Origin: Bacillota bacterium
Lineage (GTDB): Bacteria > Bacillota > SHA-98 > UBA4971
DNA: 64,000 nt
Reading direction: 5' to 3'
Assembly: GCA_024653485.1 (NCBI GenBank)
Contig: JANLFY010000001.1
Span: 77,517-141,516, forward strand
The notes beneath the pieces are model-generated. The model was not told the origin of the DNA. It did not search any database and saw only the letters and a list, made by a program, of their open reading frames with translations. Positions 38,094 through 45,581 of this stretch are shown one piece after another. The stretch's first letter is position 1; the number at the start of each line of letters is the position of its first letter. Made by a program: the position numbers and the translations under genes.

Positions 38094-39020
38094 GTGGATA
38101 GCCTGCGAGAGGATGCGCGCCAAGAGAGTATTGTGCATAAGGGCTACCAGGGCTCCCCGGAAGTCCGGTGGGACTTCTACCTGGAAGACTGCGTACAGGG
38201 GATGAGGCAGCGGCTGGAACCTGGAAGCGTGGACGTGGTCGTCACGTCGCCCCCCTACAACCTGGGCGTGCGCTACGGCCAGTATGACGACACGATCGAC
38301 CGAGGCGATTATCTCGCCTGGACTGCGAAGTGGGCGGAGGCCGTGAAGGAAGCGATGTCTGACGAAGCCTCGTTCTTCCTCAACGTGGGGTCCAAACCCA
38401 CCGACCCGTGGGTTCCCTTCGAGGTGGCAGGGGTGATGCGAGGGCTTTTCCACCTTCAGAACGTGATCCACTGGGTCAAGTCCATCGCCATCTCCAAGGT
38501 CGACGTGGGTGACTACGGCGCCCTTGCGTCTGACGCTGCTGTCGGCCACTACAAGCCAATCAACGGCCGGCGGTACCTCAACGACTGTCACGAGTACATC
38601 TTTCATTTCACGAAGACGGGCAGGGTGCCACTGGACAGGCTGGCCATTGGCGTGCCGTACCAAGACAAGTCCAACGTGGGGCGCTGGAAAACGGCGCGGG
38701 CGGGCGTGCGGTGTCGAGGGAACACTTGGTTCATTCCTTACGAGACCATAAACAGGAGAGAGAAGGACAGGCCGCATCCTGCGACGTTTCCGCCTCGCCT
38801 CCCTGAAATGTGCGTGAGGCTGCACGGCATGGATAAGTGTGGGCTGGTGTTGGATCCATTCCTTGGCATAGGAAACACCGCCATAGCTTGCGTCAGGCTT
38901 GGCGTATCGTTTGTGGGGTTCGAGATAGACAGGGATTACTTTGAGGAGGCCGTGCGCAGGGCGAGGGCCGCGGCTGGCGAGGTACACGTCAAACAGGATG
39001 GGACAAAGGATAAAGGATAG
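38094..39020 (+). CDS. Orphan site-specific DNA methyltransferase
   Basis: SAM-dependent amino-methyltransferase of the beta arrangement. Motif IV (TSPPYNLGVRYGQYDD) precedes motif I (LVLDPFLGIGNTAIACVRLGVSFVGFEID). The TSPPY form occurs in N4-cytosine and some N6-adenine enzymes, so the base cannot be fixed. The start is placed at GTG 38094 (AGGAG upstream), giving 308 residues; the frame is open to 37920 but that part crosses a hairpin and is unlike any domain. No restriction gene is nearby, so it may be regulatory or protective. It follows the glucan locus in the same direction after about 200 bases. Confidence 0.85.
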   Translation: MDSLREDARQESIVHKGYQGSPEVRWDFYLEDCVQGMRQRLEPGSVDVVVTSPPYNLGVRYGQYDDTIDRGDYLAWTAKWAEAVKEAMSDEASFFLNVGSKPTDPWVPFEVAGVMRGLFHLQNVIHWVKSIAISKVDVGDYGALASDAAVGHYKPINGRRYLNDCHEYIFHFTKTGRVPLDRLAIGVPYQDKSNVGRWKTARAGVRCRGNTWFIPYETINRREKDRPHPATFPPRLPEMCVRLHGMDKCGLVLDPFLGIGNTAIACVRLGVSFVGFEIDRDYFEEAVRRARAAAGEVHVKQDGTKDKG

Positions 39021-39063: not shown

Positions 39064-40104
39064 TCAGGCCAGCACCATGTGGCAGCGGACGAAATGGCCG
39101 GCGTGCCCAGAGCCCGCCGCAGAATCCGGCGCCGGCGCGTCCGCGATTCGGAGTAGTTCCGGGGCTTTCTCCTGGCAGAGGCGCGTGCGCCGCGGGCATC
39201 GCGGGTGGAAGCGGCACCCACGAGGGGGATCGATCGGCGTGGGCACCGTGCCTTCCAGCACGATCCTTTGTCTTCGGCGATACCGCTCGATGCTGGGGAT
39301 GGCCGACAGGAGAGCTTGTGTGTACGGGTGGAGCGGGTTCTCGAATAGCTCGTCGGTGGGAGCAGATTCCACGATCTGTCCGAGGTACATCACCGCGACT
39401 CTGTGGCTGATGTGATACACGACCCGAAGATCGTGGGCGATGAAGAGGTACGCCAGCCCAAACTCCTCCTGCAACTCTTGCAGAAGGTTGATTATCTGGG
39501 CTTGCACCGAAACGTCCAACGAGGAGAGCGGTTCGTCCGCCACGACGAACCTGGGGTGCGTGGCGAGAGCCCGGGCCACCGCGATGCGTTGGCGTTGGCC
39601 GCCACTGAACTGGTGCGGGTACCTGTCCGCGTGCTCCGCGCCCAGGCCCACACGGCGTAGCAACGCCTCGATTTCCCCGTCCCGCTCGCGTGGAGTTACC
39701 CCGCGCGCGGCAAGCGCGACTCCAAGGATGCGCCTCACCGTATGACGAGGGTTGAGGGAGCTGTACGGGTTCTGGAATATGATCTGGGCCTCGCGCCTGA
39801 TGCTCGCCCGGGGCAGGGCACGCGGCCCCGTGACTGGGTTCCCGTCGAACACGACGTAGCCTGAGGTGGGTTCGTGCAGTCCCAGGATCGTTCTACCGAG
39901 GGTGCTCTTCCCGCACCCCGACTCCCCAACGAGGCTGAGAGTCTCGCCTGGATAAACGTCGAGGCTGACTCCGTCCACCGCTCTCACCGTGCGCTCTCTG
40001 ACTCCCGCCAGGTACCTCGAAAGGAGCGTCTCGCGCAGCACGAAGTGCTTGGACAGGTTGCGTGCCGACACTAGTGGCTTTGGGTTTGTCGTCCCACTCG
40101 TCAT
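39064..40104 (-). CDS. dppF: Peptide-type ABC transporter ATPase, DppF/OppF
   Basis: Second ATPase of the dipeptide/oligopeptide transporter, 346 residues, ATG 40104 behind GGAGG. Walker A GESGCGKST, Q-loop IIFQNPYSSLNPR (diagnostic for OppF/DppF), signature FSGGQRQR, Walker B FVVADEPLSSLDV, H-loop IAHD. The C-terminal extension carries the cysteine pattern GCRFHPRCPRRTRLC...RCH that can bind an iron-sulfur cluster in this family. It is transcribed away from dppA-D with its own promoter, so it escapes the riboswitch that controls the other four genes. Confidence 0.93.
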   Translation of the reverse strand: MTSGTTNPKPLVSARNLSKHFVLRETLLSRYLAGVRERTVRAVDGVSLDVYPGETLSLVGESGCGKSTLGRTILGLHEPTSGYVVFDGNPVTGPRALPRASIRREAQIIFQNPYSSLNPRHTVRRILGVALAARGVTPRERDGEIEALLRRVGLGAEHADRYPHQFSGGQRQRIAVARALATHPRFVVADEPLSSLDVSVQAQIINLLQELQEEFGLAYLFIAHDLRVVYHISHRVAVMYLGQIVESAPTDELFENPLHPYTQALLSAIPSIERYRRRQRIVLEGTVPTPIDPPRGCRFHPRCPRRTRLCQEKAPELLRIADAPAPDSAAGSGHAGHFVRCHMVLA

Positions 40105-40552: not shown

Positions 40553-40579
40553 GCCCAGGGTCCTCCTGGGCTATCGTTT
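40553..40579 (+). terminator. Second hairpin after the riboswitch
   Basis: GCCCAGG (40553-40559) pairs with CCTGGGC (40565-40571), followed by TATCGTTTT. It may back up the first terminator. Confidence 0.6.
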
Positions 40580-40687
40580 TCCTGCGGTCCTCCAGCCTAG
40601 CGCAAAGCGTATGCTTCCCACTCGCTTCGTGAGACCCCCTTGCCCCGTTGGATGCTCAGGGCAGTGACGTTCTGGCCCCGTTTGAAG

Positions 40688-40788: not shown

Positions 40789-42384
40789 ATGACGACGAGC
40801 GTGCGAAGAGGAAAGAGCGTGTACAGCGGGAGAGGTAGCTGGATCGCTGTCGTCGTGCTGGGGCTCGCCCTCCTCCCGATGGGCCTTCCGAGCGGCGGGG
40901 CGCTCCAGGCGTCGGGCAAGACGCTGACAGTCGTGCTCGATGCCGAGGCGAACAGGGCGGACGAGGCAGAGGCCATAGCAGCCGATCTTCGGGTAATCGG
41001 CGTTCAGGCAGACGTCCGAATCTGGGAGTGGAGCGCGCTGAAGGACAGCGCTCTCAAAGGCGAGCGGCAGATGTATTTGACGGACTGGGGCAGCGCGTAC
41101 TTCGATCCCTTTGATCTGGCCGTGCCGAAGCTCCGCACCGGAGACCGCGGCAATTACTCTCACTATAGTAACCCGGCCTTCGATCTTGCCATGGACACTG
41201 CTCTTTCCGCAGTCGACCCGGAAGTCAGGCGAAAGGCTTATCGCGACGCGCAGGCCATCATACGCGAGGACGCGCCGTGGATCTTCGGGTATTACCTGAG
41301 CGAGATCGAGGCGGCGAGGGCTGACGTCAAGGGCTGGCAGCCGGCGATGGACTCGCGCATCAACCTTCACGATGTCGGGCTCGCACGCGGCGACACCATT
41401 GTCGTGGCGATGAAGACCGACAAGGTGGTGACCTTGGACCCAGCCATGCACCGCGAGCGCGACACAGAGACGGTGATTCGCAACATGTTCGACGGCCTCG
41501 TCACGCGCACGTGGGATGGCAAGGTCGTGCCGGAGATCGCCGAGTCGTGGGCGACGCCACAGGACAACGTGTACGTATTCAAGATCCGCAAGGGAATCAA
41601 GTTTCATAACGGCGAGGAACTCGACGCTGACGACGTGATCTTCACATTCGAGCGAACGCTGAAATCGGGCACCATCGGTGGACGGTCGTCCCCCCGAGCA
41701 GGGCTTCTCGGACCCATCGAAAAGGTGGAGAAGCTCGACAAATACACAGTCAGGTTTTCGCTGTCAAACCCCTTTCCCGTCTTCCTGCAGGCCCTGGTGC
41801 AAACGCAGGTGGTCCCGAAAGACTACATTGAGACCGTGGGCGACGAGGAGTTCGCGAGAAATCCCGTGGGCTGCGGCCCGTTCAAGTTCGTCGGAGGCAG
41901 ACTCGACGATCAGATCGTGATGGAGAGGTTCGACGCCTACTACGGCGGTTCGCCCGACCTTCCCCCGGTAGGGCTCGCGCAGGTGAAGCGGGTGATCTTC
42001 AGGATGATGCCCGATCCCACCGTCCGCATCGCCGCCCTGAAAGCCGGCGAGGTGCAGATAGCGCAGCAGGTGCCGCCCGATCTGGTGGCGAGCCTTGAGA
42101 GGGACAAGAACGTGCAGGTCAAAGCGGTCGAGGGAACCAGGGTGTATTGCGTCGAGCTGAATTGCTCCGCGCCGCCCTTCAACGACGTGAGGGTGCGCAG
42201 GGCGATGAACTACGCCGTCAACTGGGATAGGATCCTCAAGACGATCTATGGGGGTACGGGGAAGCGCCTTGCCACGGCGTTCTTGCCCAGCGGCTTTGGT
42301 TTCGACCCCGACCTCCGTCCCTATCCGTACGATCCTGAGAAGGCGAAGGCTCTCTTGAGAGAAGCCGGCTATTCCGTGAAGTGA
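40789..42384 (+). CDS. Circularly permuted family 5 (peptide-type) solute-binding protein
   Basis: Periplasmic receptor of the Dpp/Opp class with its parts in swapped order. ATG 40789 (GGGAGG upstream) gives 531 residues: a signal peptide to about 35 without lipobox, then a segment (about 38-200) matching the usual C-terminal part (KTLTVVLDAEANRADEAEAI, LKGERQMYLTDWGSAYFDPF, GNYSHYSNPAFDLAMD, AQAIIREDAPWIFGYY, SRINLHDVGL). Next comes the usual mature N-terminus (DTIVVAMKTDKVVTLDPAM, FKIRKGIKFHNGEELDADDV, NPVGCGPFKFV, FNDVRVRRAMNYAVNWDRI). It stops at YDPEKAKALLREAGYSVK, exactly where a normal protein would continue into KTLTVV. Each segment occurs once, so the total length is normal. Operon with dppBCD. 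Confidence 0.9.
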   Translation: MTTSVRRGKSVYSGRGSWIAVVVLGLALLPMGLPSGGALQASGKTLTVVLDAEANRADEAEAIAADLRVIGVQADVRIWEWSALKDSALKGERQMYLTDWGSAYFDPFDLAVPKLRTGDRGNYSHYSNPAFDLAMDTALSAVDPEVRRKAYRDAQAIIREDAPWIFGYYLSEIEAARADVKGWQPAMDSRINLHDVGLARGDTIVVAMKTDKVVTLDPAMHRERDTETVIRNMFDGLVTRTWDGKVVPEIAESWATPQDNVYVFKIRKGIKFHNGEELDADDVIFTFERTLKSGTIGGRSSPRAGLLGPIEKVEKLDKYTVRFSLSNPFPVFLQALVQTQVVPKDYIETVGDEEFARNPVGCGPFKFVGGRLDDQIVMERFDAYYGGSPDLPPVGLAQVKRVIFRMMPDPTVRIAALKAGEVQIAQQVPPDLVASLERDKNVQVKAVEGTRVYCVELNCSAPPFNDVRVRRAMNYAVNWDRILKTIYGGTGKRLATAFLPSGFGFDPDLRPYPYDPEKAKALLREAGYSVK

Positions 42385-42453
42385 GGGTCCGGCGGCGGGG
42401 CCGGGTCGGCCAGGCCGTCTGGCATGAAGGGAATCGGCCGGCGGATGCTCAGG

Positions 42454-42487
42454 CGGATACGGAGGGATAGCGGATACGGAGGGATAG
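42454..42487 (+). repeat. Perfect 17-bp tandem duplication carrying the dppB ribosome site
   Basis: CGGATACGGAGGGATAG occurs twice in succession (42454-42470, 42471-42487). The second GGAGGGA is correctly spaced from the GTG start at 42490, so the duplication doubled a Shine-Dalgarno sequence. Confidence 0.85.
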
Positions 42488-42489
42488 AT

Positions 42490-43506
42490 GTGCGAAAGAC
42501 GCACGTGCAAGTCCTTGAGCGGGTGCTTGCGACCATGCCCGTGGCGCTCGGCGTCGCCATCGCCGTCTTCGTTCTCATGCGGCTCATGCCAGGAGACCCC
42601 GTGGACATCATGATCGGAGAGTCCGGCGGCGTGACGCAGGAAGACATCGCGTCACTCAGGGCAGAGCTCGGGTTGGATAAGCCAGTCCTGGTGCAGCTCG
42701 GAACGTACCTGGCCGGGCTGGTGAGAGGCGACCTCGGATACTCCATGCAAAGCTCGCGTCCGGTCGCGGACATGATCGTGGAGGCCTTGCCGGCGACGAT
42801 AGAGCTCGCCATGTATTCTCTGGTCTTCGCGCTGATCGTCGCCGTCCCAGCGGGTGTCGTCTCCGCACTCAGGCAGGGCTCGGCCATCGACCGGGCGAGC
42901 ATGACCGCGTCGCTTCTGGGTGTATCGATGCCGGGGTTTTGGTTCGCCCTTATCGGGATCATCGTGTTTTCGTTACGCTTGGGGTGGCTCCCCACGTCTG
43001 GGCGCATCACGTACGGGTTTGAGCCCGAGACCATCACGGGCCTGTTCACGCTGGACGCCTTGCTCACCGGGAACTTCCCAGCATTGCGGGACGCTCTGAG
43101 GCATCTCGTTCTACCCGCTGCCACCCTGGGGGCCGGCGTGGCGGGCGTGGTGGCGAGGGTGGTACGCTCCAGCATGTTGGAGGTGCTCCGAGCCGACTAC
43201 GTTCTGTTTGCGAGGGCCAAGGGCGTGGCCGAGGGCGCTGTCATCGTCCGCCACGCCCTGCGCAACGCGCTCATCCCGGCTGTGACCGTGTTCGGGATCC
43301 AGGTCGGCACGCTTCTTGGCGGAAACATGATAGTAGAGACGGTCTTCAGTTGGCCGGGCCTCGGGCGCGTCGTGGTAGACGCCATCTTTTCGAGGGACTA
43401 TCCGCTGGTGCAAGCGGCCGTGATGGTGTACGCCTTGACGTTCGTCGCCGTGAACCTTGCGACGGACGTTCTCTATACGTATCTCAATCCGAGGATGACT
43501 CTATAA
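42490..43506 (+). CDS. dppB: Peptide-type ABC transporter permease, DppB/OppB
   Basis: Membrane subunit of 338 residues from GTG 42490 (GGAGGGA five bases upstream); longer frames to 42424 cross the tandem repeat. Starts VLERVLATMPVALGVAIAVFVLMRLMPGDPVDIM, the hallmark of this family. It contains LGLDKPVLVQLGTYLAGLVRGDLGYSM, six helices and the EAA loop DYVLFARAKGVAEGAVIVRHALRNALIP. It lies about 105 bases after dppA in the riboswitch-controlled transcript. Confidence 0.94.
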   Translation: MRKTHVQVLERVLATMPVALGVAIAVFVLMRLMPGDPVDIMIGESGGVTQEDIASLRAELGLDKPVLVQLGTYLAGLVRGDLGYSMQSSRPVADMIVEALPATIELAMYSLVFALIVAVPAGVVSALRQGSAIDRASMTASLLGVSMPGFWFALIGIIVFSLRLGWLPTSGRITYGFEPETITGLFTLDALLTGNFPALRDALRHLVLPAATLGAGVAGVVARVVRSSMLEVLRADYVLFARAKGVAEGAVIVRHALRNALIPAVTVFGIQVGTLLGGNMIVETVFSWPGLGRVVVDAIFSRDYPLVQAAVMVYALTFVAVNLATDVLYTYLNPRMTL

Positions 43507-43565
43507 GTTCAGGCTCGGGAGCCGCGGAACCACCGGGAGGGATGGGAGCCTTGGGGGACTCGTCC

Positions 43566-44564
43566 GTGTGGCTGGATGAGGTTGATGGAACTGATGCCGC
43601 GAACAAGAGCTGCCACACGCTTGCATCCGGGAGCGCCGTGGGCAACGCGCGGTCGCGAGAAGCCGGAAAACCGTTGGCGTCGGTAGCCATGGGTCTCGGT
43701 CTTGCGCTCGACGGTCTCTCAGACCTCGCAGACCTCGCACGGCGCATGGCTGCACATCGGTCCGCGGTCGTGGGCGGGGCGGTGATCCTTGTGTATCTCG
43801 CGGCTGCTGTATTCGCCCCGTGGTTGGCTCCACACGCTCCCGACGAAGTGTCTTTGGCGCGACGTCTTACTCCACCCAGCTGGGCAGGAGAGTTTCCTTT
43901 TGGCACCGACCAGCTAGGAAGGGATATCTTGTCTCGAGTGATATTCGGTGCCCGGGTCTCTATCATGGTGGGCGTGCTCACCATCGCCATCTCAATCGCG
44001 ATCGGGGTCGGTCTGGGAGTGGTGGCGGGCTATTTCAGGGGACCCTTCGACAGGCTTGTGTCGAGGTTCACCGATTTGCTCCTTGCCTTCCCATATCTCA
44101 TCTTCGTGATCGGTGCCATGGCCATGCTTGGACCCGGATTCTGGAACCTCGTTTGGGCCTTGAGCTTCAAGGGATGGGTGGAGTTCTATCGGCTGGCGAG
44201 GGCGGAGGCCATGTCTGAAAAGACGAAGGAGTACGTAGATGCTGCGAGGGCGCTCGGACGCTCCCACGCGGCTATCATTTGTTCGGAGATCTTGCCCAAC
44301 ATCGTCCACTCAATAGTGGTCCTTGGGACGTTGCGTATGGGCAACATGATCGTGTTGGAGTCGTCCCTGAGCTTCCTTGGCCTTGGGATGCCGCCGCGTG
44401 TTCCCGCCTGGGGATCGATGGTGAATGACGGAAGGCGGTACATGCTCACCGCTTGGTGGATCGCTACCCTGCCGGGGCTCGCCCTCGTGGTGTTGGTGCT
44501 CGCAATCAACCTCGTCGGAGAAGCCCTTCGAGACGTCCTCGACCCGAGGCTGAAAGAGGTGTGA
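43566..44564 (+). CDS. dppC: Peptide-type ABC transporter permease, DppC/OppC
   Basis: Second permease, about 332 residues if started at GTG 43566 (GGGGGA seven bases upstream); ATG 43542 has its GGGAGGG abutting the codon and is less likely. The long polar N-terminus (to about residue 65) is unusual for DppC. The membrane part is typical: VVGGAVILVYLAAAVFAPWLAPHAP, the FPFGTDQLGRDILSRVIFGAR periplasmic motif, EYVDAARALGRSHAAIICSEILPN as EAA loop and PRVPAWGSMVNDGRRYM near the end. Confidence 0.9.
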   Translation: MWLDEVDGTDAANKSCHTLASGSAVGNARSREAGKPLASVAMGLGLALDGLSDLADLARRMAAHRSAVVGGAVILVYLAAAVFAPWLAPHAPDEVSLARRLTPPSWAGEFPFGTDQLGRDILSRVIFGARVSIMVGVLTIAISIAIGVGLGVVAGYFRGPFDRLVSRFTDLLLAFPYLIFVIGAMAMLGPGFWNLVWALSFKGWVEFYRLARAEAMSEKTKEYVDAARALGRSHAAIICSEILPNIVHSIVVLGTLRMGNMIVLESSLSFLGLGMPPRVPAWGSMVNDGRRYMLTAWWIATLPGLALVVLVLAINLVGEALRDVLDPRLKEV

Positions 44565-44570
44565 AGCGCG

Positions 44571-45581
44571 TTGCACGCGACGCAAGCGGCCCACGCCGTG
44601 CTTGAGGTGACCGGGCTATCCACCGTGTACCCTACGTCCCGGGGTGACGTCCAAGCGGTGCGTAACGTGAGCTTTACGATCCGCGAAGGGCACTTGCTGG
44701 CGATAGTAGGGGAGTCAGGCTGCGGCAAGAGCGCCACGCTCCTCTCGATCATGCGGTTGGTGCCCCGTCCGGGGCGGATCGTGGGAGGAAGCGTCCTCTT
44801 CGCCGGACAGAATCTCATGGAGTTGAACCCCGGGGCGATGCGAGAGGTGCGAGGCAGGGACATTGCCATGGTGTTCCAGGATCCCATGACCACGTTGAAT
44901 CCCGTTTTCAGGGTGGGCGAGCAGATAGCCGAATCCCTTCGGGTGCACGGGCTTCTCCCGCGGTTCCCGGCCAGCCTTTCGCGCGCAAGCCGGGCGCGGG
45001 AGCGGGAACTTGTGACAGAGCTACTACGGAAGGTGGGGATCCCGTCGCCCGAGACGAGACACCTCGAGTATCCGCACCAGTTTAGCGGGGGAATGCAGCA
45101 GCGCATTCTCATAGCGATTGCGCTTGCGTGCAAACCCAAAGTCCTGCTGGCGGACGAGCCCACTACTGCGCTGGACGTCACGGTTCAAGCTCAAGTGCTT
45201 GAGCTCGTGCGCGAGATCAACGAGACTGCAGGGACGGCCGTCGCGCTTGTAACTCACGACCTCGCTCTCGCTGCCGAATTCTGTCACGAGGTGGCGGTCA
45301 TGTACGCGGGCCAGATCGTGGAGCAGGGACCCACCGAAGCGGTCTTGGAGGACCCGATGCACCCCTACACTCGGGGGCTCCTTCGTTCTATTCCGCGCAT
45401 GGGCGAGAGGAAACGGCTGACTCCGATTATGGGCGAGGTCCCTGACCTTGCCTGCCTCGGGCCGGGTTGCGGTTTCGCACCCCGTTGCGACCTGCGTCGG
45501 CCATGCTGCGACACGTTCGAGCCCGGGCCGGTGTCGGTTGACTTGCATCGTACCGTCCGGTGTCACGCCTACAGCGACTAG
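44571..45581 (+). CDS. dppD: Peptide-type ABC transporter ATPase, DppD/OppD
   Basis: First ATPase of the transporter, 336 residues, start TTG 44571 with GAGGTG upstream, six bases after dppC. Walker A GESGCGKSA, Q-loop MVFQDPMTTLNPVFRVGEQI (diagnostic for OppD/DppD), signature FSGGMQQR, Walker B VLLADEPTTALDV, H-loop VTHD. The C-terminal cysteine cluster GCGFAPRCDLRRPCC...RCH is the family iron-sulfur type motif. It would heterodimerise with DppF, encoded divergently. Confidence 0.94.
   Translation: MHATQAAHAVLEVTGLSTVYPTSRGDVQAVRNVSFTIREGHLLAIVGESGCGKSATLLSIMRLVPRPGRIVGGSVLFAGQNLMELNPGAMREVRGRDIAMVFQDPMTTLNPVFRVGEQIAESLRVHGLLPRFPASLSRASRARERELVTELLRKVGIPSPETRHLEYPHQFSGGMQQRILIAIALACKPKVLLADEPTTALDVTVQAQVLELVREINETAGTAVALVTHDLALAAEFCHEVAVMYAGQIVEQGPTEAVLEDPMHPYTRGLLRSIPRMGERKRLTPIMGEVPDLACLGPGCGFAPRCDLRRPCCDTFEPGPVSVDLHRTVRCHAYSD

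Follow-up and report, generated by a model that had tools for sequence, protein, structure and literature searches.

A circularly permuted family 5 solute-binding protein encoded at the head of a Dpp-type importer operon in Bacillota

The 64,000-nucleotide stretch of the Bacillota contig JANLFY010000001.1 analyzed here (hereafter, the window) encodes a 531-aa family 5 solute-binding protein, P0001 (40789..42384, + strand), in which the last third of the normal protein has been moved to the front. Taken as a whole, the evidence is very probably best explained by a true and ancient circular permutation of a DppA/OppA-type protein (cluster C, SBP_bac_5) that belongs to a Dpp-type importer. Family 5 proteins are among the commonest binding proteins of bacteria. 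A full-length permuted member of this family had been proposed at this locus in the initial annotation, and the open reading frame, its start and its stop were found as described there, with the blocks rotated in comparisons with both Pfam and DppA.

The gene starts with an ATG at position 40789, which is preceded by AGGGAGG, a ribosome-binding-like site. Residues 1–41 (40789..40911, +) contain a hydrophobic stretch, lack a lipobox cysteine and have pLDDT values below 50; by inspection they resemble a signal peptide, as in an exported protein. Comparisons with Pfam, DppA and relatives divided the rest of P0001 into block C (residues 44–199; 40918..41385, +), which normally forms the end of the protein, and block N (residues 200–529; 41386..42375, +), which normally starts the mature protein. 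P0001 matched Pfam SBP_bac_5 (PF00496) in two stretches with an E-value of 2.5e-88 and a score of 297.1 bits (gathering cut-off, 32.4), residues 245–529 corresponding to model positions 1–279, and the C-like segment alone (window 40900-41391) matched model positions 290–363 through residues 44–116 (E=4.7e-8). Against DppA (1dpe), residues 244–528 aligned with 44–340 and residues 56–183 with 361–491; the segment-wise profile comparison recommended in the initial annotation, once run, returned the SBP_bac_5 and DppA matches in swapped order. SBP_bac_5 was the only family matched, the listed PDB fold matches were family 5 proteins, and the score against the DppA equivalog NCBIfam NF043070 was 181.8 bits, below its cut-off of 1005. 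Each block is present once, none is duplicated, the length is normal and the ends are complementary, as in a circular permutation. The canonical linear order of SBP_bac_5 and of the cluster C fold is rotated in P0001, which therefore represents a permuted SBP_bac_5 variant by descent rather than an ordinary member.

The nearest normal-order relatives share about 59% identity with the front block of P0001 and about 50% with its back block. In a tblastn search, the normal-order L180 aligned with residues 201–529 of P0001 and then immediately with residues 40–199, with a 15-nt overlap, indicating that the cut is exact. The closest normal-order relatives read unbroken through ..KAKELLKEAGVSDLKVVIDTQPFREGEA.. 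at the site where P0001 ends with ..KALLREAGYSVK and, after the signal, begins with GKTLTVVLDAEANRADEA... The old ends, at which the relatives finish with ..MDSRENMHDVYIEE and start with ..GGTIVIALN.., are continuous in P0001 (..MDSRINLHDVGLARGDTIVVAM..). At this junction (41371..41397, +), as judged against the normal-order sisters, the former C-terminus (..NLHDVGL) is directly joined to the former mature N-terminus (..GDTIVVAM) without an extra linker. These alignments indicate that the ends of P0001 meet exactly relative to the normal order, with nothing lost or repeated. The earlier description of a clean permutation, with each segment present once, is borne out by the single blocks and by their exact end-to-end fit to L180.

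The AlphaFold2 model of P0001 showed a pLDDT of 90.6 and a pTM of 0.85, with disorder in the signal region only, from an alignment in which canonical proteins were present as separate fragments, which may favor the canonical fold. The fold of P0001 is thus predicted with confidence, and the protein may form a two-lobed clamp that closes on its ligand. Foldseek, which keeps the sequence order, matched P0001 to canonical structures over 340–395 columns with a TMt of about 0.5, compared with 517–566 columns and a TMt of 0.70–0.92 for the normal-order control L052; the short sequential match of P0001 is what a permutation predicts. L052, together with many other candidates matching residues 37–528 of P0001, was rejected as P0001-like, as the segment-wise check revealed a normal order joined from two pieces.

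The order of P0001 was also found in about 25 genomes from at least seven families, in orthologues (clade A1) that are colinear with it at 58–100% identity, which excludes chance as the source of this order. Within a 399-genome sample of the phylum, these orthologues were distributed over the families f1, f63, f110, f10, f97, f15, and f134; they occurred in the genus and family of the window's genome and in six other families. The search of plasmids yielded no permuted relative. Between congeners, dN was 0.07–0.09 and dS 0.85–1.16, giving a ratio of about 0.08 that was similar in both blocks, which indicates at the sequence level that the gene is under purifying selection and not decaying. The low dN/dS and the colinear orthologues in independent genomes led us to reject a pseudogene reading of P0001. 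The orthologue in G242 (L155:1053-2988, +) carries one in-frame TAG in an otherwise conserved gene, which may reflect decay, error or recoding, and that in G003 is interrupted by contig ends.

All fetched open reading frames were classified with segment HMMs divided at the two cut sites; they comprised 133 with the normal order N1-N2-C, 37 with C-N1-N2, 30 with N2-C-N1, and nine incomplete ones. In a tree built from 85 proteins that had each been rearranged into canonical order, clade A1 was supported at 99/96 and adjoined the normal-order L162/L164/L165 at 97/97, and A1 and its sisters were located inside a larger clade (100/100) that is otherwise of normal order. P0001 is nested in this way among normal-order members of the SBP_bac_5/cluster C family, and the tree indicates a single origin of clade A1. 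Normal order predominates both in the tree and in the other phyla sampled, and the permutation was therefore taken as the derived state.

On the same strand, P0001 is followed by genes for a DppB/Opp2B-type permease (42424..43506, +; Opp2B 343 bits and DppB 296 bits, both below the curated cut-off), a DppC/Opp4C-type permease with an uncertain start codon (43530..44564, +; Opp4C 275 bits), and a DppD-type ATPase (44571..45581, +; PRK11022 313 bits). A DppF-type ATPase (39064..40104, −; PRK11308 392 bits) is encoded divergently, an arrangement common to most A1 loci. Wherever the flank of an A1 locus sufficed, the A1 gene was located directly 5′ of dppB and dppC and, in most cases, dppD, and dppF was encoded divergently or downstream. 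The A1 loci showed no other binding-protein gene, and this gene order recurred in most normal-order sisters. Beside the transporter cluster, window 38130-39020 (+) contains a gene that resembles adenine-specific DNA methyltransferases and gave weak family matches.

The operon is headed by a c-di-AMP riboswitch aptamer (RF00379; 40395..40543, +), the sole Rfam match in the window, which scored 83.3 bits (gathering, 38) over the full model 1–134. Its position upstream of the P0001 gene on the same strand places this gene in the predicted c-di-AMP riboswitch regulon. Nine nt past the aptamer, a hairpin was read from the sequence (40553..40580, +; GCCCAGG-GTCCT-CCTGGGC followed by TATCGTTTT), which is terminator-like and may function as such. 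The riboswitch was found upstream in all 12 A1 loci of one search and in several more A1 loci, as well as upstream of the normal-order sisters L162, L163, and L165, suggesting that this regulatory setting is older than the permutation or shared by descent; it was not found at the A1 loci L196, L197, L023, L156, and L157, of which the last three have short flanks. Reviews associate this riboswitch class with the transport of osmoprotectants, potassium uptake and the metabolism of the cell wall, and describe repression upon c-di-AMP binding (PMC7288161, PMC9337991).

Judging from its sequence and gene neighborhood, P0001 most likely serves a c-di-AMP-controlled Dpp-type importer as its ordinary binding protein, with the tether moved to the other lobe. 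In cluster C structures, lobe I would contain the old termini and the domain III lobe the new ones (around DppA 341–350), which implies a move to the other lobe for the export signal and, in some relatives, also for the lipid tether. The permutation may change the hinge, the permease interface or the export order, as suggested in the initial annotation. Asp408 of DppA presumably holds the bound peptide by its amino group. The equivalent of this residue is Ala103 in P0001 and Ala or Ser across clade A1, and the normal-order sisters lack it as well, so that the ligand may be something other than a free peptide. The riboswitch would fit an osmolyte or a compound derived from the cell wall.

We propose that the ancestor was a normal-order gene already heading a Dpp-type operon and already behind a c-di-AMP riboswitch. 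The old ends would have been linked and a back-lobe loop (DppA about 341–350) opened to give new ones, most likely when the gene was duplicated in tandem, the copies fused in frame and the two extremities trimmed. No fused double-length protein, the expected intermediate of such a route, was found. After export by the signal peptide that now stands ahead of the former C-terminal block, P0001 would fold into the usual two-lobed clamp with its presumed clamp motion and dock as the binding protein dedicated to the adjacent DppBCDF importer.

Other explanations of the locus were weighed against this proposal. There is next to no chance that the gene arose in assembly through a false join of two neighboring normal binding-protein genes: although the genome of the window is a 41-contig draft, the same order was found in many independent assemblies, including the complete record CP062796.1 (Candidatus Fermentithermobacillus) and single-contig genomes, and the divergence between orthologues is concentrated at synonymous sites. 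The misassembly alternative raised in the initial annotation thus fails the recurrence check proposed there; moreover, neither a second copy nor its remnants were found near the locus. It is also very improbable that the front block and the rest of P0001 came from two different binding-protein genes and were fused. Fusion or duplication would be a plausible path to a permutation, and the blocks do differ in identity to relatives (about 59% versus about 50%), but for nearly all of the 27 A1 members a single small sister clade supplied the best normal-order relatives of both blocks, indicating that the gene is not a chimera, and the concatenated tree places clade A1 firmly.

A permuted P0001 that is no longer part of an importer and acts as a receptor, sensor or chaperone instead is quite unlikely, since in each examined locus, where no other binding protein was seen, the gene immediately precedes dppB and occupies the place of the normal-order gene in sister genomes. 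The loss of the Asp408 equivalent would speak for such a role, as would the fact that some family 5 proteins have non-transport roles. The explanation retained is that P0001 is a permuted binding protein of its adjacent importer.

Permuted proteins were found beyond clade A1 in three further groups, of which A2 and A3 have the cut of A1 and B has a different cut; nearly all loci examined of these groups also contain dpp-type genes. A2 includes P0002 of the window's genome (G000:C8:150646-152331; L005:1438-3123, −), a second, distantly related permuted binding protein that heads its own dppBCDF operon, as well as members in families f7, f21, and f64. A3 is a single lipoprotein (L190:2-1543, +; family f69), cut as in P0001 and placed among normal-order proteins, apart from the other permuted groups. 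Group B (L186-L189, L221-L250) has the order N2-C-N1 with a cut near DppA residue 208; its full-length matches were found in 27 of the 399 genomes, from ten families, and it heads dpp-type genes in the four loci with flanks examined. At least one permuted member was present in 46 of the 399 sampled genomes, a sample that includes close relatives of the window. A lipid tether as the sole driver of permutation was rejected, as the lipobox pattern is matched by only about half of the A1 members and by none of the 30 group B rows.

A single clade for all permuted proteins was rejected (log-likelihood 347 lower, p-AU 8e-80), as was one clade of A1 and A3 (p 5e-4), and one clade of A2 and B was marginally rejected (p 0.045). 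These tests suggest at least three independent permutation events. The number is probably four, but as the rejection of A2 with B is marginal, we claim at least three origins rather than four. It is likely that permutation represents a recurrent and successful route in cluster C binding proteins, with at least three events and two cut sites in a single phylum and with the importer operon retained in each case over long times, possibly because a tether or export start on another lobe alters the permease contact.

The permuted clade and its close normal-order sister, with their shared operon type and riboswitch, constitute a clean natural experiment that bears on termini, tether position and folding order in binding proteins and permeases. 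From the repeated events and the two cut sites, it seems that new ends are tolerated by the fold at certain positions, a point of use in biosensor design. Annotation based on profiles labels permuted proteins as ordinary SBP_bac_5, and such cases are therefore easily overlooked. In open-licence full texts, no earlier report of permutation in cluster C/SBP_bac_5 (OppA/DppA/NikA, structure-database surveys) was found; the view that no permuted member of this class had been described holds within this searchable literature, the nearest precedent being TpMglB-2 (PMC4990184). Natural permutation is already known for this cluster B binding protein, and the cluster C case adds recurrence and a second cut site.

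P0001 resembles the DppA/OppA/NikA-type proteins (PF00496, cluster C) through homology over nearly the whole mature length, operon type and nesting in the tree, but differs from them in that the back block comes first, the new ends lie in the back lobe and the old ends are joined. The normal-order sisters L162-L165 (f66, f117, f138), with about 59% front and 50% back identity, share its operon type, and L162, L163, and L165 its c-di-AMP riboswitch, whereas their block order is normal. A2 (P0002), A3 (L190), and B are likewise rotated SBP_bac_5 proteins heading dpp-type operons but are only distantly related to P0001 (A2 is about 28% identical), and B is cut at about DppA 208. TpMglB-2 (Tp0684) of Treponema pallidum and relatives, termed “Type Ic/Cluster Bc,” is likewise a naturally circularly permuted binding protein of an ABC importer and still binds its ligand (PMC4990184). 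It differs in having a cluster B sugar-binding fold, a group (type I) to which P0001 does not belong, and in its family and cut. Moreover, the permuted part of TpMglB-2 may come from another gene according to its authors (PMC4990184), whereas both parts of P0001 were co-inherited.
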